This document shows positions 1-14,150 of a stretch of 64,000 nucleotides of DNA, one piece after another. The position numbers and the translations under genes were made by a program. Each line of letters begins with the position of its first letter. Position 1 is the stretch's first letter. Location: the NCBI GenBank assembly GCA_902572695.1, contig CACGGZ010000001.1, forward strand, positions 1 to 64,000, in the 5' to 3' direction. The DNA is from an uncultured Pelagibacteraceae bacterium. Lineage in GTDB: Bacteria; Pseudomonadota; Alphaproteobacteria; Pelagibacterales; Pelagibacteraceae. The notes beneath the pieces were generated by a model that saw only the letters and a program-made list of their open reading frames with translations, did not search any database and was not told the origin of the DNA.

Positions 1-402
1 TATAAATTTCAACCTATTTTAGTTTCGGATGTAGCTAGTGCTATTTTAAAATCAATTGAGTTAAAAAAAAATGAAGGATGTATTTATGAGATAGGAGGAC
101 CTAAAGTCATAAGCTTTGGTGAAATGGTAAAATCAATTTTATCTACAATTAAAAAAAAAAGATTTGTAATAGAAATGCCAATGCCTATTGCAAAAATACA
201 AAGTTCAATCACTGATCTTTTGCCAATTCCACCTATCTTAACTAGAGATCAATGTGAAATTCTCTCTGAGGGAGACAATATTGTTTCTAATAATAATCTA
301 ACTTTAAAAGATTTAGGCATCACACCACTAGACGTCGAGGAGGCTATGAAAAAATGGTTGTGGAGATATAAAGACGGCGGACAATTCTCAAAAGCAAAAT
401 GA
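1..402 (+). CDS. NAD(P)-dependent epimerase / NDUFA9-like protein, 3' part (5' end outside window)
   Basis: Frame is open from base 1 (YKFQPILVSDVASAILKSIELKKNEGCIYEIGGPKVISFGEMVK...) into ORF 124..402; the C-terminal pattern resembles complex-I NDUFA9-like epimerases. Confidence 0.7.
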   Translation, partial: YKFQPILVSDVASAILKSIELKKNEGCIYEIGGPKVISFGEMVKSILSTIKKKRFVIEMPMPIAKIQSSITDLLPIPPILTRDQCEILSEGDNIVSNNNLTLKDLGITPLDVEEAMKKWLWRYKDGGQFSKAK

Positions 403-743
403 AAAGTATAAGTTTGTTCACAGGATATATTTATTTAGTTTTTGCAATCATAAGCGGTATTGCGTCGAATGGTTTTCTTAAAACCACAGAAAGTTTTACA
501 AAGCTTTACCCTACTGTTTTTTGTATTATAAGTATTGTTGTATGCATTTTCTGCTTATCGAGAGCTATGAGTATTATCCCAGTAGGATTTACTTATGCTA
601 CTTACGGAGCCCTAACAATTACAGCTGTAACTTTTTTTGGAATTTTTAAGTATAATCAGACCCCTAATCTTTATGGCACAATCGGGCTAACTTTAATAAT
701 AGTGGGTGTTATACTTTTAAACGTTTTTGGTAAGGTAAAATAA
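399..743 (+). CDS. small multidrug resistance (SMR/EmrE-like) membrane protein
   Basis: 114 aa, four hydrophobic segments, SMR-like motifs (RAMSIIPVGFTYATYGALT, G.ILI.GV.LLN). Confidence 0.75.
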   Translation: MKSISLFTGYIYLVFAIISGIASNGFLKTTESFTKLYPTVFCIISIVVCIFCLSRAMSIIPVGFTYATYGALTITAVTFFGIFKYNQTPNLYGTIGLTLIIVGVILLNVFGKVK

Positions 744-839: not shown

Positions 840-2153
840 ATGAAACATTTAAAAGCAATAATTGCTTCAATAGCGCTTTTTGCAATGTTTGCAGGAACAG
901 CTGTTCAAGCAAAAGTAGAAATACAATGGTGGCATGCTTTTGGTGGAAGACTTGGAGAATTGCTTGATGAACAAGTAAACAAGTTTAACGCAAGCCAAAA
1001 TAAATACACAGTTGTACATACTAGAAAAGGTAACTATTCAGAAACTTTGAATGCCGGTATTGCAGCATTTAGAGCTGGACAACATCCAAATATACTTATG
1101 GTGTTTGAAGTTGGAACAGCCAGTTTAATGGCTGCAAAAGGAGCTTACGTTCCTATGTACCAACTGATGAAAGATGCTGGTCAAAAATTTAATCCGAAAG
1201 GGTTCGTGTCAGCGGTAAGTGGTTATTACACTACTACTGATGGTAAAATGTTATCTATGCCATATAACTCTTCAACACCAGTTCTTTGGGTTAACAAAGA
1301 CTTAATGAAAAAAGCAGGTTTAGATCCTGAAATGGATTTGAGCACTTGGAAAAAAGTTGGAAACGCGCTGGACGCTGCTAAAGCAAAAGGTATTGATATG
1401 CCTTTCTGTACTTGTTGGCACAGTTGGATTCATCTTGAGAATTTTTCAGCCTATCACGACATACCATTCGCGACTAAAGCAAATGGATTTGGTGGTTTAG
1501 ATACTGAGTTGGCTTTCAATAGCCCAGTACATATAAAACACATTCAAACGTTAGGTAAATGGGCTCAAGAAGGTAAATTTAAATACATGGGTAGACGAAA
1601 CGAAGCAGGTAAAAATTTCAGAGCAGGTGAATGTATGTTAATGACAGAGTCGTCAGCGGGTTATGCTGGAATTAAAAAAGCTGCTAAGTTTGAGTTTGGT
1701 ATAAGACACTTACCTTACTATGGTGCAACAAAAGCTCCTCAAAATACTATAATTGGAGGATCTTCTCTTTGGGCACTTTCAGGAAAATCTGACGAAGAAA
1801 ATAAGGCTACTGCAGCATTTTTAGCTTTTCTTTCAAGAACTGATATTCAAGCGAAGTGGCATCAAGACACTGGTTACCTAGGTGTTACAACAGCTGCTGC
1901 TAAAAAAACTAAAAGTTCTGGTTTTTACAAATCAAATCCTGGAACTGATTTAGCTGGAATACAGATGATGAGAAATAAAGTTACTCAAAACTCTAAAGGC
2001 TTACGTCTTGGATCTTTTGATCAAATAAGAGGAATTATTGATGAAGAGATGGAAGGAGTTTACAGCGGTAAAAAAACTGCGCAAGTCGCTTTAGACAGCG
2101 CTGTAAGAAGAGGTAACGTTCTTTTAAGAAGATTTGAAAGAGCTAACAAATAA
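840..2153 (+). CDS. ugpB: sn-glycerol-3-phosphate ABC transporter substrate-binding protein
   Basis: Signal peptide then VEIQWWHAFGGRLGELLDEQVNKFNASQNKYTVV; followed by ugpA/E/C. Confidence 0.9.
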   Translation: MKHLKAIIASIALFAMFAGTAVQAKVEIQWWHAFGGRLGELLDEQVNKFNASQNKYTVVHTRKGNYSETLNAGIAAFRAGQHPNILMVFEVGTASLMAAKGAYVPMYQLMKDAGQKFNPKGFVSAVSGYYTTTDGKMLSMPYNSSTPVLWVNKDLMKKAGLDPEMDLSTWKKVGNALDAAKAKGIDMPFCTCWHSWIHLENFSAYHDIPFATKANGFGGLDTELAFNSPVHIKHIQTLGKWAQEGKFKYMGRRNEAGKNFRAGECMLMTESSAGYAGIKKAAKFEFGIRHLPYYGATKAPQNTIIGGSSLWALSGKSDEENKATAAFLAFLSRTDIQAKWHQDTGYLGVTTAAAKKTKSSGFYKSNPGTDLAGIQMMRNKVTQNSKGLRLGSFDQIRGIIDEEMEGVYSGKKTAQVALDSAVRRGNVLLRRFERANK

Positions 2154-2163
2154 ATCAATTTGA

Positions 2164-2191
2164 TATACTGGGGGCGAAAGCCCCTGGTATA
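2164..2191 (+). promoter_or_regulatory. strong GNRA-capped hairpin in the ugpB-ugpA intergenic region
   Basis: ATACTGGGGGC-GAAA-GCCCCTGGTAT, about 11-12 bp with two G-U pairs, not followed by a U-tract. Confidence 0.75.
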
Positions 2192-2205
2192 AATCTTAAA
2201 TTTAA

Positions 2206-3087
2206 ATGGAAAAAAGAGTTTTTTTTAAAGGCTGGAAGCTTCCGTTACTTTTAGTAACTCCACAATTAATTATTTCAGCAGTATTTTTCTTTTACCCCTC
2301 GGGTCAAGCAATTTGGAACTCATTATTTTTGCCAGATCCTTTTGGATTAAAAACTGAATTTGTTGGATTGGATAACTTTAGATTTTTACTTTCTGACAGT
2401 TATTACTTAGCGAGTTTTAAAACAACTATAATATTTTCAGTTGCAGTGACGATTTCATCAATGTTAATCGGATTATACCTTGCTGCTTTAGCTGATAGAT
2501 TAATTAAAGGGTCAGGTGTATATCAAACACTTTTAATTTGGCCATATGCCATAGCACCCGCAATCGCAGGAGTTCTTTGGCTATTCTTATTTAATGGAAA
2601 TATAGGCTTAGTTTCGTGGTACCTAAAGGGATTAGGATACGAATGGAATCATAATTTAGATGGTGATCAGGCTATGTTTTTAGTTGTGCTTGCATCTGCT
2701 TGGGGAAGAATTAGCTATAATTTCCTTTTCTTTTTTGCTGGGCTTCAAGCAATACCAAAAAGTATTTTAGAGGCAGCTGCTATTGATGGCGCAAGTTTTT
2801 GGAAAAGATTTATGTCTGTTGTAATACCACTACTTTCACCAATTACTTTTTTCTTATTGGTTGTAAATATAGTTTACGCTTTTTTTGATACATTCGGTGT
2901 AATTCATACAATTACGTCTGGCGGACCAGAGCAATCGACAACGATACTGGTTTATAAAGTATTTAGTGATGGATTTGTAAGTCAAGATTTAGGATCGAGC
3001 GCAGCTCAGTCAGTTATTTTATTAATTTTGGTTGGAGTACTTACAGTGATTCAATTTAAATATATAGAGAGAAAGGTTCATTATTAA
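2206..3087 (+). CDS. ugpA: sn-glycerol-3-phosphate ABC transporter permease UgpA
   Basis: MalF/UgpA-type permease with EAAxxDGA motif (EAAAIDGASFWKRF), operon context. Confidence 0.9.
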   Translation: MEKRVFFKGWKLPLLLVTPQLIISAVFFFYPSGQAIWNSLFLPDPFGLKTEFVGLDNFRFLLSDSYYLASFKTTIIFSVAVTISSMLIGLYLAALADRLIKGSGVYQTLLIWPYAIAPAIAGVLWLFLFNGNIGLVSWYLKGLGYEWNHNLDGDQAMFLVVLASAWGRISYNFLFFFAGLQAIPKSILEAAAIDGASFWKRFMSVVIPLLSPITFFLLVVNIVYAFFDTFGVIHTITSGGPEQSTTILVYKVFSDGFVSQDLGSSAAQSVILLILVGVLTVIQFKYIERKVHY

Positions 3088-3947
3088 TGGTTGAGAAAAA
3101 GAAAACAGCTTACTGGATGACTCATTTAGGATTAATTTGTGGAGTTGTTCTTATTTTTTTCCCAGTCTGGGTCGCTTTTGTTGGCTCAACTGTTTCGCAA
3201 GATGATATAATTTACCCACCACTTCCTTTATTACCCGGACCACATTTAATTGATAATTATGCTAACGCTTTATTTAGAGGTGGCCCAGAAGGGTATGCTG
3301 GAGCCAGCCAAGTCCCAGTGATTAGAATGTTAATGAATTCAGCTATAATGGCTTTCGGTATAGCAATTGGTAAAATTATAATTTCATTATTATCAGCTTT
3401 TGCTTTTGTGTATTTTAGATTTCCTTTTAGAAAAACTGCCTTCTGGTTAATATTTATAACTCTAATGTTACCAGTTGAGGTAAGAATTTATCCCACATAT
3501 GAGGTTGTTGCCAATTTAGGATTACTAAATAGTTATGCAGGATTAATTTTTCCATTAATTGCTTCCGCTACAGCCACTTTTCTTTTTAGGCAATTTTTTA
3601 TGACTATTCCGGATGAAATGGTTGAGGCTGCTAGAATGGATGGTTGTAAGCCTATGAGGTTCTTTTTTGATATCTTAATTCCAATTAGCAAAACCAATCT
3701 AGCAGCGATATTTGTGATTATGTTTTTATTTGGCTGGAACCAGTTTTTGTATCCAATGTTACTTACGACAGATCCAAACATGAAGACCATTGTAATGGCA
3801 GTTGACTCAATGATACCAGCAGGTGACGACTATGCGCATTGGCCTACTGTATTTGCTAGTGCCATTTTAGCAATGTTACCACCAATAATAATTATAATTA
3901 GTATGCAAAAATTCTTTGTTAAGGGACTACTGGAAAGCGATAAATAA
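3087..3947 (+). CDS. ugpE: sn-glycerol-3-phosphate ABC transporter permease UgpE
   Basis: MalG/UgpE-type permease with [14 protein letters not shown], operon context. Confidence 0.9.
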
Positions 3948-5002
3948 TGACTGATATTAGTTTACAAAATCTTAAAAAATCTTTTGGTGATACGAAAGTA
4001 ATTCATGATTTAAGCATAGACATTAAAGACGGCGAACTGATAGTCATTGTTGGTCCCTCAGGATGCGGTAAGTCAACTCTTCTTCGAATGATAGCTGGCT
4101 TAGAAGATGCTAATGATGGAAATATATTAATAGATGGCAAAAAAGTAAATTCCCTCGAGCCTATGGAAAGAAATATAGCGATGGTTTTTCAAAATTATGC
4201 TTTATATCCTCATATGTCTGTGTTTGATAATATGGCTTACGGATTAAAAATTGCAAAAATTCCTAAGGATGAAATCAACTCAAGAGTTCAAAAGGCAGCA
4301 AAAATTTTAGAAATTCAAGATTACTTGGAGAGAAAACCAAATCAATTGTCAGGTGGTCAAAGACAAAGGGTAGCAATGGGAAGAGCAATAGTAAGAAATC
4401 CAGTTGCTTTTTTATTTGATGAACCTTTATCAAATTTGGATGCAAAACTGAGAGTTCAAATGAGACTTGAAATTAAAAAACTTCAAACACAATTAAAAAC
4501 TACTTCATTATTTGTAACGCACGATCAAGTCGAAGCTATGACGTTAGCTGATAGAATGATAGTAATGAACGAGGGCAATGTCGAGCATATTGGAAGCCCA
4601 TTGGAAGTTTACACTAAACCAAAAACTTTGTTTACTGCACAATTTATCGGAAGCCCTGCTATGAATATATTAAAAGGAGATTGTAAAAATAATATTGTTA
4701 CTTTTTCTAACCAATCCTCATTAAAAACAATCTCAAAATTTAATGGAAAGGTAAATGTAGGTCTTAGACCAGAAGATTTTAAAATAGATGAAAATGGACC
4801 CATAAAACTTAAGGTAGAATTAGTCGAACTGGTTGGATCTGATACTTTGATACATGGAAAACTTGACGGAAGCGATGAAATACTGATTGCAAGTATCCAA
4901 GGAGTTATCAACGACAATTTGAGAGGAAAAAGTATAAATTTATCTTTTGATGAAAATAAATTACATTTGTTTGATATTAGTACAGATCAAAGGATAAATT
5001 GA
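3947..5002 (+). CDS. ugpC: sn-glycerol-3-phosphate ABC transporter ATP-binding protein
   Basis: Walker [10 protein letters not shown], signature LSGGQRQR, Walker B, C-terminal TOBE-like region. Confidence 0.92.
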
Positions 5003-5931
5003 AAAATTCATTTCTAATAAAACCTAATTACATCAGGATCTACGGACATCGTGGAGCTAGAGGTGATATTGTAGAAAATAGCATTGAGGGATTTAAATAT
5101 ACTTTTGCTTTAGGAATAAAAGCTATTGAATTTGATGTCGTTATTACTAAAGACAATATTCCAGTTTTATTTCATGATTACCGTTTAAATAAAGATATGG
5201 TTAAAGATAGTTCCGGAAACTGGTTGTCGGACACAGGACCAAAAATTTTGGATTTAACTTACGAAGAATTAAATAGTTATAGTATTGAGAGCACAAAACC
5301 GGATAGTGCATATTTTAAAAGATTTAAAAATCAAAATCCTGCAAAGGGAGCTAAAATCCCAAAACTTGTAGACCTTTTTGAACTAGTAACAAAAAAAGAA
5401 AACAAAGACGTCTTTTTAAACTTAGAAATTAAATCTACGCCAACACAAGAAAATGTTACACCCGATCATAAAACTTTTGTTTCACTAATTTTAAAAGATA
5501 TTAAAAAGTATAATTTGGAGGATAGAATTTTAGTAACCTCATACGATTTTAAAAACCTATATGAATTAAAAAAACAAAACCCCAATATTTTGAGAGGATT
5601 TATCACTTTGCAGCAAGATCTCTCAAGAACTAAAAAAAACATTTATGAGGGTTCGCCTTGGATGGCAAAGTCTTTTCCAATAGAAGATTTATTTTTATTA
5701 CCAAATTTAATAAAATCTTTAGAGGGACATGTTTGGAGTTCTTTCTATAGAGATATTACTAAAAAAAATGTTGAACTTGCACATAAACATGGCCTTGCGG
5801 TAGCAGCATGGACAGTGAATAGAGAAAAAGATATTATTAGAATGATCGAGTACGGAGTTGATGGAATTATCACTGACTATCCAAAAAAAGTTCAAGAAAT
5901 TTGTAAATCCAAAAATATCTCTTGGTTTTAA
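4999..5931 (+). CDS. ugpQ: glycerophosphodiester phosphodiesterase
   Basis: [18 protein letters not shown]..., GDPD family; TTG start overlaps the ugpC stop codon (TTGA). Confidence 0.88.
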
Positions 5932-5975: not shown

Positions 5976-6113
5976 ATGGCAAAAAAAAAATACCAAAGAA
6001 ACTGGTTAGAGAGAAAACTTGATGAATATAACCATACAATGGAGCTGATTAGAACTATCCTACCTTTTTTAATACTTTTGCTACAAATTTACATACTAAC
6101 GAAACTCATTTAA
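5976..6113 (+). CDS. 45-aa putative single-TM small protein (below the ORF-track length cut-off)
   Basis: Read directly: ATG GCA AAA AAA AAA TAC CAA ... CTC ATT TAA = MAKKKYQRNWLERKLDEYNHTMELIRTILPFLILLLQIYILTKLI; fits the gap between ugpQ and the next ORF. Confidence 0.55.
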   Translation: MAKKKYQRNWLERKLDEYNHTMELIRTILPFLILLLQIYILTKLI

Positions 6114-6144: not shown

Positions 6145-6387
6145 ATGTCTTTGTTGTTTTTATCACTAGCAGGTATCATTGCAATCATTGTTATTCTTGT
6201 ATCGGCAAAATTTATTAAAGCAGGATTTGATGCTAGAGGTGAGGTTAAAGAGGAACAAAGAAAAGAGAAACTCAAGCAAGAGGATGAAGATATTTTAGAT
6301 GAATTAAAAAGAAAAGACCTTTCTGAGGAAGACTTAAAAGATCTTTACGATAAAATTCAGAATAAAAAAAAAGATGACAATGAGTGA
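6145..6387 (+). CDS. 80-aa protein: N-terminal TM segment plus highly charged helix
   Basis: MSLLFLSLAGIIAIIVILVSAKFIKAGFDARGEVKEEQRKEKL...; overlaps the downstream kinase ORF by 14 nt. Confidence 0.7.
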   Translation: MSLLFLSLAGIIAIIVILVSAKFIKAGFDARGEVKEEQRKEKLKQEDEDILDELKRKDLSEEDLKDLYDKIQNKKKDDNE

Positions 6388-7414
6388 GACTTTGAAAGAG
6401 ATTAAATTTCTAAATGATTTACCTGACCAAGTTATAGTAATAGATAAATTTAAAACAATTAACTTTGCAAATAAAAGTGCTAAAACTCGTTTTGGATCTA
6501 ATATTGAGAGTCAAAATATTTCAAGTATTGTGCGTGATGCTGAATTGTTGGATCAGATCGATAAATCATTGGAAAAAAATCAAGGCGGGATCTTGGATAT
6601 TGAAATTAAGGCACCTAATTTCCAATATTATAAAGTAAGTGTCATGCCTGGACCAAAAAATTTATTAAATACGAGTGATAGTGTAATTATCTTTTTTAAA
6701 GATTTAACTGATATCATTAAAGTTCAAAAACTCAAATCCGATTTCGTTGCGAATGTCTCTCACGAACTAAGAACGCCTTTGCAAAGTATTAAACTTGGTC
6801 TTGAAACAATAAATAATGGTCATGCGTCTAAAGATTTAGAAAGTCAAAAAAAAATATTACCAGTTGTTCTTCAGCAAACTTCAAGGATGGAAAGTATTGT
6901 AAATGATCTATTATCTCTCTCAAGAATAGAACTCCAAGAACATATAAGACCGAGTGAAAAAGTGGATTTAAATGAGATTATTTCTCACTCAATTGATTTA
7001 AATAAAGAAATCATAAAAAAAAATAATATGAGCTGTAGTTTCGACAAACAATCAGACAATATAAAAATTAATGGCGATAGAAACAGGTTAATTGAGGTTT
7101 TTAATAATCTTATAGATAACGCAATAAAATATAGTGAGAAAAATAAGAAAATAAAAATAACTACTAAATCTAAAGACAATAATTTTCATGCAATAGTCGA
7201 GGATGAAGGTATTGGGATATCTAAAGAAAACATACCCCAGATAACTGAGAGATTTTTTAGGGTAAATCCTGCTAAAAGCAAAGAAGTTGGAGGAACTGGT
7301 TTAGGTTTAGCAATAGTAAAACATATAGTGAATCAACATAGAGCAGAAATGTCTATAACAAGCGAATTAAATAAAGGTACCCGTATTTCCTTAGTTTTTC
7401 CAATCAGTTTATAA
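6374..7414 (+). CDS. phoR: PhoR-like sensor histidine kinase (PAS-HisKA-HATPase), no obvious TM segment
   Basis: H-box FVANVSHELRTPLQSIK, N-box NLIDNAIKYS, G-box GGTGLGLAIVKHIV; next to the pst/phoU/phoB cluster. Confidence 0.88.
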   Translation: MTMSETLKEIKFLNDLPDQVIVIDKFKTINFANKSAKTRFGSNIESQNISSIVRDAELLDQIDKSLEKNQGGILDIEIKAPNFQYYKVSVMPGPKNLLNTSDSVIIFFKDLTDIIKVQKLKSDFVANVSHELRTPLQSIKLGLETINNGHASKDLESQKKILPVVLQQTSRMESIVNDLLSLSRIELQEHIRPSEKVDLNEIISHSIDLNKEIIKKNNMSCSFDKQSDNIKINGDRNRLIEVFNNLIDNAIKYSEKNKKIKITTKSKDNNFHAIVEDEGIGISKENIPQITERFFRVNPAKSKEVGGTGLGLAIVKHIVNQHRAEMSITSELNKGTRISLVFPISL

Positions 7415-7517: not shown

Positions 7518-8534
7518 ATGAAAATAATAAAAAACATAGTAGCAGTTATTGCTATTCTCTCTTTTGCTTCATACGCACAAGCAAGAGACCAAATTAAAAT
7601 TGTAGGTTCTTCAACAGTTTACCCATATGCAACAGTAGTTGCTGAGAAATTTGGAAAACAAGGTAGTTTTAAAACCCCAGTAATTGAAAGTACTGGTACT
7701 GGTGGTGGAATGAAATTATTTTGTGCTGGTATTGGAGTAAACCACCCAGACATCACTAATGCTTCAAGAGCAATTAAATCTAAAGAAAAGGCTTTATGTG
7801 AAAAAAATGGTGTAAAAGATATAATCGAAGTAGTTGTAGGAAATGACGGTATAACATTTTCTCACTCAGTAAAATCACCTGACGCAAATTTCACAAAAGA
7901 GCAACTTTGGAGAGCTTTAGCAGCGAAAGTAGATGTTAATGGTAAATTAGTAGAAAACCCATATAAAAAATGGAGTGATATAGATGCAAGTTTACCCAGC
8001 AAGAAAATTGAAATCTTAATTGCACCCCCAACATCTGGAACAAGAGATGCTTGGAATTCATTGGTAATGAATAAAGGTTGTTCAAAAGAGGCTAAATCTT
8101 TATTTGGTGATAAATCTAAAAAAGAATGTGCAAAAATGAGAGAAGATGGTTACGCGGTTGAAGCAGGTGAAAACGACACTTTAATTGTACAAAAACTTGC
8201 AGCAAATCCTGATGCTTATGGTTTCTTTGGCTATAGTTATTATTTAGCAAACAAAGACAAAATAAAAGCAGCGGCTATCAATGGGGTAAAACCTTCATTA
8301 GAAGGGATTCAAGATTATTCTTATCCAATAGCAAGACCATTATTCTTTTATGCAAAGAAAGCTCACGTTGGAGTAGTCCCTGGTCTGAAAGAATTTTTAG
8401 ACACATTCACTTCAAAAAAAGCTATGGGATCTAGAGGTTACTTAACTGATATTGGATTAGTGCCACTAGCTAGTGATAAATATAAAGTTACTAGAACTGC
8501 AGCAAAAGACTTAGTTACAATCAACCTCAAGTAA
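7518..8534 (+). CDS. pstS: phosphate ABC transporter substrate-binding protein
   Basis: Signal peptide then IKIVGSSTVYPYATVVAEKF; the ORF track start at 7491 is probably too far upstream, MKIIKN at 7518 preferred. Confidence 0.93.
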   Translation: MKIIKNIVAVIAILSFASYAQARDQIKIVGSSTVYPYATVVAEKFGKQGSFKTPVIESTGTGGGMKLFCAGIGVNHPDITNASRAIKSKEKALCEKNGVKDIIEVVVGNDGITFSHSVKSPDANFTKEQLWRALAAKVDVNGKLVENPYKKWSDIDASLPSKKIEILIAPPTSGTRDAWNSLVMNKGCSKEAKSLFGDKSKKECAKMREDGYAVEAGENDTLIVQKLAANPDAYGFFGYSYYLANKDKIKAAAINGVKPSLEGIQDYSYPIARPLFFYAKKAHVGVVPGLKEFLDTFTSKKAMGSRGYLTDIGLVPLASDKYKVTRTAAKDLVTINLK

Positions 8535-8550
8535 CAGTTGTTAATTAATG

Positions 8551-8580
8551 AAAAAAAGGCCGATTATTCGGCCTTTTTTT
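8551..8580 (+). terminator. Rho-independent terminator after pstS
   Basis: AAAAAAAGGCCGA-TTAT-TCGGCCTTTTTTT followed by more T. Confidence 0.9.
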
Positions 8581-8644
8581 TTATTCTCAATTTAAAGTTT
8601 AAATATTTAACAAATCTGTAACATTACTCATTTACATAAAGATC

Positions 8645-10024
8645 ATGAATTCTTTAATTGCGGGAGTAATTTTAATTCTCTGCCTTTCAAGTTATTTTTT
8701 CGGTAGATCTGAAGCTCGTAAGTTAGTTACTCAAAATATTAAACTAAAAGCGCTTCCAGCTTATTATGGTTATTATTTATCTCTATGGTGTGGCTTACCG
8801 GCATTAATTATTTTTGGATGTTGGTCACTGTTTGAACCCACAATAATCAAAGTCTTAATACTTAATAATTTTCCTCAAATTGAGTCTAAAGACTTATTTT
8901 ATGAGCAAACATTATCATTTTTTAATGGAAATTTTTCAGGTGAGATAACAAATGAAATTAAAGCAGCTTCAATAAAGTACTCTTCAATTAATATTATTGC
9001 TCAAAATTCAAAAATTGTAATTATAGCTGCTGCGTTAATTGGCTCTCTAACTTTTGCATACAGAAAAATTCAAAATAATAATAAAGCCAGAGATGATGTT
9101 GAGATAATACTAAAAGTTTTATTATTTACCTCTTCTTTAGTAGCAATTTTGACAACAGTAGGGATAATTGTATCTCTGTTATTTGAAAGCCTAAAGTTTT
9201 TTTCTACGATAAACATATTCGAATTTATATTTGGTACCTCTTGGAGTCCTCAACGTGCTTTCGTAAGGGATGCATCTGCTATAACTCCTGAAGAACTTTT
9301 AGAGCTTCAAGATGCTTTTGGTTCTGTGCCTTTATTTGCAGGTACCGCATTCATCGCCTTAATTGCAATGTGTGTGGCTGTCCCAATAGGTTTATTTTCT
9401 GGAATATATTTAGCTGAATATGCTTCAACGAAAGTTAGAAAATATTCCAAACCAATTATTGAAATCTTAGCTGGTATACCAACTGTGGTTTACGGTTTTT
9501 TTGCTGCTTTAACTGTTGGACCTTTCTTTAGAACCCTTGGTGAGAGTTTGGGTCTCACTGTTTCATCAGAAAGTGCACTAGCAGCTGGATTGATTATGGG
9601 AGTTATGATTATTCCTTACATATCTTCTTTATCTGATGATGTAATAAATTCAGTTCCACAATCCTTAAGAGAGGGCTCTTACGCAGTTGGCGCTACCAAA
9701 TCCGAAACTATAAAAAAAGTTGTAATACCAGCAGCTCTACCGGGAATAATTGGATCTATTCTTTTAGCGGTCTCAAGAGCTATTGGAGAAACTATGATTG
9801 TAGTCATGGCTGCAGGTTTAGCTGCAAACCTAACTATAAATCCTCTTGAGTCCACTACAACCATCACAACTCAAATTGTTATGATATTGGTGGGAGACCA
9901 AGAATTTGACAGCCCTAAAACACAAGCTGCATTCGCATTAGGATTAACATTATTTATCGCAACATTAATTTTAAATTATATCGCGCTGAGAGTTGTTAAA
10001 AAATACAGAGAAAAATATGACTAA
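8645..10024 (+). CDS. pstC: phosphate ABC transporter permease PstC
   Basis: PstC family, REGSYAVGATKSETIKKVVIPAALPGI, order pstS-C-A-B. Confidence 0.93.
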   Translation: MNSLIAGVILILCLSSYFFGRSEARKLVTQNIKLKALPAYYGYYLSLWCGLPALIIFGCWSLFEPTIIKVLILNNFPQIESKDLFYEQTLSFFNGNFSGEITNEIKAASIKYSSINIIAQNSKIVIIAAALIGSLTFAYRKIQNNNKARDDVEIILKVLLFTSSLVAILTTVGIIVSLLFESLKFFSTINIFEFIFGTSWSPQRAFVRDASAITPEELLELQDAFGSVPLFAGTAFIALIAMCVAVPIGLFSGIYLAEYASTKVRKYSKPIIEILAGIPTVVYGFFAALTVGPFFRTLGESLGLTVSSESALAAGLIMGVMIIPYISSLSDDVINSVPQSLREGSYAVGATKSETIKKVVIPAALPGIIGSILLAVSRAIGETMIVVMAAGLAANLTINPLESTTTITTQIVMILVGDQEFDSPKTQAAFALGLTLFIATLILNYIALRVVKKYREKYD

Positions 10025-11279
10025 AGAACAAAGGTTAAAAAAAAGATATAGAGCAGAAAAAAGATTTAAGATGTACGGCTTAATCTCTGTCAGTTTAGCA
10101 GTTATCTTTGTATTAATTCTTGTACAAAATATTTTTTCTAAGGGAAGTTCAGCTTTCAGTAGAACGATGATAGAAGTGGCAGTAAATTACGACTCCTCTC
10201 TTCTAGAATTAGAGGGTCCAATTAATCAAAATTCTCTTAAAGATGCAGATTTCTATGATTTAGCTGTAGAAAGTCTTTTGAAAATATATCCTGCAAAAGA
10301 CTCTAAAGAGGAAAGACAAATTTTAAGATTATTTAGCCCTGATTACGAATTTGAGATTAAAGATTTTTTAATTAAAAATCCGAATAAAATTGATCAAATT
10401 GTTCCAGTTAAAATCACAGCATCCGATGATATTGATCAGCTGAATAAAGGAAATTTTCCTAGAGATTTACCAGAGGACAGAAGACGAGTTAGCAATTATC
10501 AATTAAATATTTATGACAATTTAATTGAAAAAGAAAAAATTGATAAAAAGTTTAATAATTATCTTTTTACCAAAGGAGATTCTAGAGATCCTGAGTTAGC
10601 TGGTATAGGCGGTTCTTTAATGGGATCATTCTTTACAATTATAATTTGTTTAATCTTGTCTTTCCCAATAGCTATAATGGCTTCAATTTATCTGGAAGAG
10701 TTTGCTCCAAAAAATAAAATAACCGACTTTATAGAAATTAATATTAATAATTTAGCAGCAGTACCATCAATAGTTTACGGTCTTTTAGGTTTAGGAATAT
10801 TATTAAGTGTAATGGAATTTCCTAGGTCTACCCCATTAGTTGCAGGAATTACATTATCTCTAATGACTTTACCGAGAATAATAATTCCATGCAGAGCATC
10901 ATTAAAAGCAGTTCCACCCTCTATAAGAGAAGCAGCATTATCAGTTGGAGCTTCAAAATTTCAGACAGTGTTTCATCACGTTGTTCCACTGGCTATGCCA
11001 GGAACTTTATCTGGAACAATAATTGGTCTAGCTCAAGCTTTAGGAGAAACGGCTCCTTTAATTCTTATCGGGATGGTGGCTTTTGTAGTTGATATTCCAA
11101 GTTCGCCAGTTGATCCATCAGCATCTTTACCAGTACAGGTTTACTTATGGTCTGAGCAAGCTGAGAGAGGATTTGTGGAAAAAACGTCGGCAACAATTAT
11201 GATGTTGCTTGGCTTTCTTATTGTAATGAATTTCATTGCCGTTTATCTTAGACAAAAATTCGAAAAAAAATGGAATTAA
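10017..11279 (+). CDS. pstA: phosphate ABC transporter permease PstA
   Basis: PstA family, [26 protein letters not shown]; likely start MTKEQRL at 10017, overlapping the end of pstC. Confidence 0.92.
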
Positions 11280-12043
11280 ATAATTCAAAAATAAAAATAA
11301 AAGCAAAAAACTTAAATGTTTATTATGGAAAAAAACAAGCTTTATTCGATATTAATTTAGATATTAATCAAAAAGAAGTAACAGCATTAATTGGTCCATC
11401 AGGATGTGGTAAATCTACATTTATAAGATGCATTAATAGAATGAACGATGTAATTGATATTTGTAAAGTAGAAGGGTCTGTTGAAATAGACGGAGCTGAA
11501 ATTAATGAAAAAAATGTTGATGTAGTTACACTTAGAGAAAAAGTGGGAATGGTGTTTCAAAAGCCAAATCCTTTTCCAAAAAGTATTTATGATAATATTG
11601 CTTATGGCCCAATTATACATGGTGCTGCTGAGAACAAAGATCAAATGGATAACATAGTTGAGACAAGTTTAAAAAAAGCAGCTCTTTGGGATGAAGTAAA
11701 AGATAGATTAAATGAGCCTGGCACAAGTTTGTCAGGGGGGCAACAACAAAGACTTTGTATTGCTCGAGCACTATCGGTTAATCCAGAAGTAATTTTAATG
11801 GATGAACCTTGCTCTGCTTTAGATCCAATCGCTACCGCGAAAATAGAGGAATTAATAGATGATTTAAAAAAAAGCTACACAATCGTAATTGTTACGCACT
11901 CAATGGCACAAGCAGTAAGAGTTTCACAAAAAACAGGTTTTTTTCATCTTGGAAAAATAATAGAAGTAGACTCAACGGATAAAATATTTAAAAATCCGGC
12001 TAATAAAATGACGCAAGATTATATTACAGGGAGATTTGGATAA
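11270..12043 (+). CDS. pstB: phosphate ABC transporter ATP-binding protein
   Basis: [43 protein letters not shown] typical of PstB. Confidence 0.95.
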
Positions 12044-12739
12044 ATGTCTGGAACAGGCCATACAGTAAAATCATACGAAGAGGAGATGCAAAGCCTAAAT
12101 GATAATCTTGTAATGATGGGAAGCCTTACAGAAAATCAGATGGCAGATGCGATGGCAGCCGTTATTAAAGTTGATAAAGAATCAGTAGACAAAATCGTAA
12201 AAAATGACGGAAAAATAAATGAATTAAGATCCACTATTGATAATCAAATTACAACTGTTTTAGTGAAAAGAGCTCCAATGGCAGTTGATTTAAGAATTAC
12301 TATTTCAACAATGAAGATTTCACATGATTTAGAAAGAATTGGAGACCTAGCGAAAAGTGTTGCTAAAAAAGTTAAACCGCTACCAGTAGATTTACCTGAC
12401 GAACTTATAGGAAGTCTTAGAAGGTTGGGAGATTTAGTACAAAAACAATTAAAAGATGCTCTAGACGCTTATCTAAATAGATCAAAAGATAAGGCAATTG
12501 AAATTTGGAAAAAAGATGAACAAGTAGATGATTTGACTAATTTAGCTATGAATGAAGTTGCAACTTATTTACAAAAAGACAAAAAAAATTTAGAAATGGC
12601 AACACATTTATTATTTGTAACAAAAAATATAGAAAGAGCTGGAGACCATATAACTAATATTGCCGAGTCTCTTTATTATTTAATTGAAGGCGAATATCTT
12701 GAGGGAGCAAGACCAAAAGGTAAACCTGTAGAAAGTTAA
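12044..12739 (+). CDS. phoU: phosphate transport system regulator PhoU
   Basis: PhoU-type repeats with DLERIGDLAKSVA and NIERAGDHITNIAE. Confidence 0.94.
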   Translation: MSGTGHTVKSYEEEMQSLNDNLVMMGSLTENQMADAMAAVIKVDKESVDKIVKNDGKINELRSTIDNQITTVLVKRAPMAVDLRITISTMKISHDLERIGDLAKSVAKKVKPLPVDLPDELIGSLRRLGDLVQKQLKDALDAYLNRSKDKAIEIWKKDEQVDDLTNLAMNEVATYLQKDKKNLEMATHLLFVTKNIERAGDHITNIAESLYYLIEGEYLEGARPKGKPVES

Positions 12740-13422
12740 TGAGCGCCCATATTTTTGTTGTAGAAGATGAAAAGCCAATTTTAACCCTTCTTACTTATAA
12801 TCTTCAAAAGGAAGGATATAAAGTATCCTCTAGCTCAAATGGAGAAGAAGCTCTTTCGAGTATAAAAGAAAAAAAACCAGACCTTGTTTTGTTAGATTGG
12901 ATGTTACCTGATTTATCTGGGATAAAAATTTGTCAATATTTAAAACAAGATGAAAAAGTAAAAAATATACCTATCATTATGCTTACGGCAAAAGGTGAAG
13001 AAGAAGATAAAGTCAAAGGACTTAATACTGGTGCAGAAGATTACATGACAAAGCCCTTCAGTTTCCCAGAGCTGTTAGCGAGAATAAAATCTTTATTAAA
13101 AAGAGTTAAACCTAATATTGTAAGTGAAGAGGCTACTTATTTAGATCTTAAAATAGATAGAGAATCTATGAAAGTATTTAGGAAAGAAAAAGAAATTACT
13201 TTAGGTCCTAAAGAATATAAATTACTTGATTTTTTAATTAAACAACCAAAAAGAGTGTATTCAAGAGAGCAGTTGCTAGAACATGTTTGGGGAGATGATA
13301 TTAACGTGGAGTCTAGAACAGTAGATGTTCATATTACCAGATTAAGACAATCAATAAACATTGAAGGGGCTAAACCTTTAATTAGAACTGTCCGTTCAGC
13401 TGGGTATTCTTTAGAAAATTAA
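12739..13422 (+). CDS. phoB: phosphate regulon response regulator PhoB
   Basis: Receiver domain (DLVLLDWMLPDLSG) plus winged helix (SREQLLEHVWGDDINVESRTVDVHITRLR). Confidence 0.93.
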   Translation: MSAHIFVVEDEKPILTLLTYNLQKEGYKVSSSSNGEEALSSIKEKKPDLVLLDWMLPDLSGIKICQYLKQDEKVKNIPIIMLTAKGEEEDKVKGLNTGAEDYMTKPFSFPELLARIKSLLKRVKPNIVSEEATYLDLKIDRESMKVFRKEKEITLGPKEYKLLDFLIKQPKRVYSREQLLEHVWGDDINVESRTVDVHITRLRQSINIEGAKPLIRTVRSAGYSLEN

Positions 13423-13646: not shown

Positions 13647-14150
13647 TTAACCAGCGGATTTGACCTTTTTCTCAATAAATTCTGGTATCTCATCGTCTTT
13701 TTCAAGAACTTCATCTTTTTGTCCTTTAGGCTGAAATGCGTAAATAATATGTAATTTGCAATAAGGAAAATCTTGCTCAGGTTTTCTTCCGCAAAAATAA
13801 AATTTTTCCTCATTAGGGTGTCCTATTGGCCATTTACAAGTATCTTCGGTCAGTTCCTCAAGTGATTTCGGGTTTTCTGGCTCAAAATTTTTATCTAAAA
13901 GTATTGATTGAAATCTTGCTTTCCGGCTCATTGGTTGAGAGCTTTTTTTAAAGTTTTTATTTTTGCTTACCTCTCTTTGACCACTACTAGTGTTTTTAGA
14001 CGGAGCTCTAGCTTCTAAATTCAATCTGTGAGCTTTCCCAATAACTGCATTTCTTGTGGTATCACCTAAAATTTCTGCAATTTGGCTAGCAGTTTTTCCT
14101 TTGCTCCAAAGCTCTCTTAATTTTTTAATTTTTTCTTCTGTCCAACTCAT
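13647..14150 (-). CDS. gcrA: GcrA-like cell cycle regulator
   Basis: MSWTEEKIKKLRELWSKGKTASQIAEILGDTTRNAVIGKAHRLNLEAR is the canonical GcrA N-terminus; Cys-rich C-terminus. Confidence 0.92.
   Translation of the reverse strand: MSWTEEKIKKLRELWSKGKTASQIAEILGDTTRNAVIGKAHRLNLEARAPSKNTSSGQREVSKNKNFKKSSQPMSRKARFQSILLDKNFEPENPKSLEELTEDTCKWPIGHPNEEKFYFCGRKPEQDFPYCKLHIIYAFQPKGQKDEVLEKDDEIPEFIEKKVKSAG

Follow-up and report, generated by a model that had tools for sequence, protein, structure and literature searches.

The histidine kinase PhoR encoded in the phosphate island of an uncultured Pelagibacteraceae bacterium lacks a membrane anchor and follows directly upon a gene for a small membrane protein, sm80, whose N-terminus is homologous to the anchor that PhoR carries in sister lineages. 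Taken as a whole, we consider it likely that sm80 and PhoR are two separate proteins, probably coupled in their production, and that no programmed slippage joins them; in sister lineages sm80 and PhoR have traded the anchor module by recombination. The features on which this reading depends are listed in Table 1, where positions refer to the window, that is, the whole 64,000-nucleotide stretch of DNA that was analysed. The coordinates that a preliminary description of this DNA had given for the 80-residue reading frame, the phoR reading frame, their 14-nt overlap and the A9 tract proved exact.

Table 1. Features of the phosphate island and its flanks in the window.
Feature	Position	Strand	Description
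w124 (3' end of NAD-epimerase gene) and SMR transporter gene	124..743	+	island-flanking core genes; Pfam PF01370 (homologue), PF00893 (SMR)
ugpBAECQ-like cassette	840..5931	+	in some genomes stands between SMR and sm80
sm45	5976..6113	+	hyperconserved 45-aa single-TM protein, just 5' of sm80
sm80	6145..6387	+	ORF of 80 aa; TM helix at about aa 3-24, charged linker, C-terminal helical hairpin
A9 tract	6364..6372	+	within sm80 codons (NKKK)
phoR	6374..7414	+	ORF of 346 aa; PhoR-type histidine kinase, soluble and without anchor
Overlap of sm80 end and phoR ORF	6374..6387	+	14 nt, ATGACAATGAGTGA
PAS-like sensory domain of PhoR	6407..6703	+	aa 12-110; weak Pfam PAS_8 match, E=0.0074
HisKA of PhoR	6734..6931	+	H-box SHELRTPL; Pfam PF00512, E=2.5e-18
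HATPase_c of PhoR	7073..7405	+	Pfam PF02518, E=1.1e-27
Remainder of pho cassette: pstS, pstC, pstA, pstB, phoU, phoB	7521..13422	+	translations; Pfam for pstS and phoB; order conserved
gcrA	13650..14150	-	opposite island flank; Pfam PF07750, E=1.8e-38

The island is laid out as NAD-epimerase, SMR, sm80 and gcrA, with a ugp cassette, where present, between SMR and sm80 and a pho cassette, where present, between sm80 and gcrA; the window has both, the ugpBAECQ-like genes being followed by phoR-pstS-pstC-pstA-pstB-phoU-phoB. Genome comparison shows that the pho cassette is gained and lost at one and the same island site, of which sm80, a core gene, is the resident. The genome is of SAR11 type; related named records all belong to uncultured Pelagibacteraceae or Pelagibacterales, except for one metagenome-assembled genome (MAG) that is probably mis-binned. 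On a 'Rhodobacteraceae' MAG contig (L168, 114-2364), sm80 and roughly the first 85 residues of a soluble PhoR are continued in frame by a DNA polymerase of phage type, an arrangement that is probably a SAR11/phage assembly or binning chimera. The neighbouring protein sm45 is identical or nearly so in dozens of loci, with synonymous sites that differ by up to 0.63. Other SAR11 genera and another family have relatives of it with the motif ERKLDxxNHxMELxRT, which adjoin phoR divergently in two genomes (G140 and G233); searches of Pfam and NCBIfam with sm45 gave no match.

PhoR comprises PAS, HisKA and HATPase_c parts in that order, with an intact H-box, and is linked in the genome to pstSCAB-phoU-phoB. 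It matches the PhoR profile TIGR02966 over residues 12-342 (E=7.9e-88), with a score of 294.7 bits that lies below the equivalog cut-off of 334.2. The AlphaFold2 (AF2) model is good from residue 11 (mean pLDDT 84) and contains PAS-like, DHp and CA parts; the PAS region has a PAS-like topology, with pLDDT mostly between 72 and 90, and the top Foldseek matches are histidine kinases bearing PAS or LOV domains. The preliminary description was right to assign these three parts to the protein and to find no hydrophobic stretch in it: no hydrophobic or transmembrane segment was found ahead of the PAS domain of the window PhoR. Most PhoRs across the family have one N-terminal TM helix. The soluble PhoRs of the genus form a single clade (support 100/100), and hence their ancestor either lost the anchor or had never acquired one. 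A second soluble PhoR heads the same cassette in a complete genome (G131), where the pst genes are 73-84% identical and sm80 was found neither beside PhoR nor, at the level of detection, anywhere in the genome. Such a PhoR can therefore exist without sm80, which is thus not strictly required by soluble PhoR. Two PhoR-like kinases from a second family of the order (L198 and L199, family f2) likewise begin at the PAS domain, without a TM segment.

The small protein has a history of its own. In the AF2 model of sm80, helices span residues 3-31, 37-55 and 61-79 (pLDDT 65). Its orthologue in the neighbouring genus, flanked by the same epimerase gene (w124) and by gcrA, has at its end a SHOCT domain recognised by Pfam (33.9 bits against a cut-off of 27); SHOCT is a small C-terminal domain of unsettled function (PMC3581485). 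Profile comparison of sm80 with these SHOCT-bearing copies gives N-terminal homology (97.7%, E=2.5e-12), so that synteny and N-terminal homology together establish orthology with the TM-SHOCT proteins. The C-terminus of the window sm80 has no SHOCT match in Pfam and is instead a hairpin, predicted at modest confidence; hhalign of the C-terminal slices gave 3%, a fold search with sm80 gave no usable match, and a family match to DUF1127 was not seen. Copies of sm80 in genomes that lack a detectable PhoR are under purifying selection, with a median pN/pS of about 0.23. Thus sm80 is a single-pass membrane protein in its own right, old in the SAR11 family and of the TM-plus-SHOCT type. That sm80 might be the relic of a decayed phoR 5' end was considered and rejected, since stand-alone orthologues with a SHOCT end exist in the order w124-sm80-gcrA and the orphan copies are under purifying selection.

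Three states of the locus were distinguished in a survey of 121 genomes of the same genus, themselves incomplete, to which one genome (G154) was added from an order-level search. The split state, in which sm80 is followed immediately by a soluble PhoR, occurs in 8 of the 121, the window's own included, and in G154. The orphan state, with sm80 and no detectable PhoR, occurs in 26 genomes, and as many independent absences of PhoR are not explicable by genome incompleteness. In the fused state, found in about 50 genomes, a PhoR of 395-404 aa begins with an sm80-like N-terminus. One locus (L031 1097-1690, in G104) bears a visible scar of cassette replacement: behind an orphan sm80 stand the opening codons of a soluble phoR that has been deleted, after which the w124 3' end and SMR appear for a second time, with a fused phoR 4 kb further on. 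In the nine split genomes whose upstream region is intact, sm80 and soluble phoR are adjacent without exception, and sm80 still stands directly 5' of phoR where its N-terminus has been replaced (L040, G154).

The relationship to the PhoR membrane anchor that had been suspected for the 80-residue protein is borne out, in that its first 50 or so residues are homologous to the N-terminus of the fused PhoRs, which occupy the same island in frame, downstream of w124-SMR, with or without ugp. The main anchor type of these PhoRs has a relationship to sm80 that exceeds what composition explains (z=12.7), and the anchors of PhoRs in genus g3 and of the second PhoR of G024 were tested against sm80 and are unrelated to it (z about 0). 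Two PhoR-type kinases per genome were seen in G024 (L059 and L060), where the two anchors are unrelated, and in G244 (L207).

In two fused lineages (L032 and L061) the anchors conflict with the kinases. The kinase of L032 is 97% identical to that of L044, where the anchors share only 53%, and an orphan sm80 has 88% identity to the L032 anchor. At the DNA level, a block of about 180 bp in L032, which begins 41 nt before the start and extends to codon 46, matches the SMR-sm80 locus at 84-93%, and the DNA directly 3' of it matches fused phoR at 95%; the 41 upstream nucleotides correspond to the 3' end of the SMR gene, a relic of the anchor's origin. The kinases of L061 and L063 are 88% identical and their anchors 38%, and the L061 anchor is 57% identical to the sm80 of G154 (z=21.7), with which it has ARxELKRDGTLxKN in common. 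In both lineages, then, sm80 and PhoR have swapped the TM-plus-linker module by recombination; for the older fusion, the direction is one that we infer.

At the junction itself, deleting one A of the A9 tract, or adding two, does join the frames as had been pointed out, and yields a computed fusion of 422 or 423 aa with the junction peptide ..QNKKMTMSETLK.. Runs of this kind are common: the same strand of the window has 26 A-runs and 21 T-runs of at least nine, two of the A-runs within phoR itself (at 6846 and 7015), and 7 of 33 close out-of-frame gene pairs have an A or T run of at least seven in their shared open region, sm80/phoR having the longest. Among 35 split loci compared, with several loci from one genome, only the window's near twins reach 9 in the longest A run of the shared region, four assemblies having A9 (L001, L002, L138, L139); elsewhere that run is 8, 6, 5 or 4. 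The frame offset is +1 in most split pairs and +2 in G154, where the phoR frame is already closed four codons ahead of the phoR start. Since neither the tract nor the offset is conserved, a conserved slippage mechanism is unsupported, and the slippage fusion that the preliminary description had offered as one alternative was rejected, as a programmed mechanism, on these grounds. A homopolymer sequencing error, which that description had meant to exclude by resequencing, is also set aside, because independent single-cell assemblies (L002/G053, L138 and L139) carry the same junction. What is kept is contact between stop and start. Orthologous PhoRs begin MNELLKEI.. or MSTSLKEI.. and the window PhoR, if read from the ATG at 6380, begins MSETLKEI..; that ATG is therefore a likelier phoR start than 6374, and the real overlap is then probably 8 nt, ATGAGTGA. 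Split pairs have three types of junction (ATGAGTGA/ATGAATGA, TAA-T-TTG and TAATG), each of them with a separate start codon for phoR, and stop and start are spaced from -14 to +1 nt in all, so that the genes overlap or abut throughout. From this contact we infer that translation of sm80 and phoR is probably coupled.

On our preferred reading, sm80 and PhoR would be made separately from overlapping co-directional genes, the ribosome probably restarting at the overlapping stop and start. In the window's clade the pho cassette stands immediately behind the resident sm80, its PhoR having, on this reading, lost its own anchor; in sister lineages the same site holds a PhoR joined in frame to an sm80-type TM-plus-linker module. 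The cytosolic PhoR would signal with its PAS domain docked on PhoU/PstB, the arrangement by which PhoU and PstB are proposed to control PhoR of E. coli (PMC5775613, PMC12501420), and sm80 would be at most an optional in-trans tether. The adjacency in all nine split genomes could nevertheless reflect a functional partnership stronger than this reading allows.

How far the two proteins have to do with each other can be weighed in several ways. The chances are about equal, in our judgement, that they are functionally unrelated neighbours, the compact SAR11 genomes having set the cassette behind sm80 by chance. The selection on orphan sm80, the gain and loss of the cassette at one site, the soluble PhoR of G131 without sm80 and the swapping of phosphate islands known from a fixed genome position in marine bacteria of the related order HIMB59 (PMC10734472) all agree with this, but it is difficult to square with the recurrent fusion of this very TM module to PhoR and its exchange with PhoR, even if shared position alone could provide the raw material. 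A less probable alternative is that sm80 binds the soluble PhoR and tethers it to the membrane near PstSCAB-PhoU, the pair thereby rebuilding the fused sensor of sister lineages. The homology of the sm80 N-terminus to the fused-PhoR anchor of the same locus constitutes a fusion (Rosetta-stone) link, the nine split genomes keep the order of the genes even behind a replaced N-terminus, and there is precedent in the DUF1127 small proteins that bind PhoR (PMC12501420); however, 26 genomes retain sm80 without PhoR, G131 has the same cassette and a soluble PhoR with no detectable sm80, and the C-terminal hairpin, specific to stand-alone sm80, is missing from fused PhoR. Of the two proposals in the preliminary description, a separate subunit of PhoR is a role that sm80 may possibly have, and the PhoR-less copies come close to the observation that the description had named as counting against it. 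Similarly tentative is the idea of a detachable anchor, in which the soluble PhoR would be recruited in trans by sm80 and populations would interconvert split and fused sensors by recombination at one island. It is very improbable that RNA polymerase slips at A9 and so makes, in minor or major amounts, a 422-aa protein of the order TM-linker-PAS-HisKA-HATPase. One A fewer fuses the frames, slippage at A/T runs is documented (PMC6149199, PMC5009743), and low-level slippage may occur at the A9 shared by the window's species and its near twins; but the frequency of such runs, the shorter tracts and different frame of orthologues and the separate phoR start codon speak against it, and the product would have the hairpin left between its linker and PAS, which true fusions do not.

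The membrane region of PhoR is usually taken for granted, yet with PstSCAB and PhoU reading phosphate its role is unclear. In SAR11 a single locus has this sensor in several natural forms, with its anchor, split from a small membrane protein related to it, or soluble without such a protein, and hence the need for a PhoR anchor is directly testable. Sensor-anchor modules are seen here to be fused, and exchanged by recombination, among some of the most abundant marine bacteria. In a short literature search we did not find described an island membrane protein that stands alternately alone, upstream of a soluble PhoR, or within PhoR, and the literature on split histidine kinases and on SphS yielded nothing relevant.

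Among known systems, the small proteins with a TM segment and SHOCT domain (PF09851; PMC3581485) resemble sm80 in that its same-locus orthologues in the neighbouring genus end in SHOCT, whereas the window protein ends in a helical hairpin to which Pfam assigns no SHOCT. The action of DUF1127 on PhoR, and of MgrB on PhoQ (PMC12501420), is similar in that a small separate protein adjoins or acts on a PhoR-type kinase, but sm80 is related to the kinase's own anchor and is at most a putative partner of PhoR. E. coli PhoR has an N-terminal membrane domain followed by PAS, DHp and CA domains (PMC5775613); the window PhoR shares with this proteobacterial type (TIGR02966) its domain order, its profile match and its place beside pstSCAB-phoU-phoB, and departs from it in having no membrane segment at all and in scoring under the equivalog cut-off. 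Also close is the fused single-TM PhoR of sister SAR11 (e.g. L032, L044), from the same genus and island, with a kinase about 51-52% identical and an anchor homologous to sm80, unlike the window pair in that anchor and kinase form one polypeptide from which the C-terminal hairpin of sm80 is absent.
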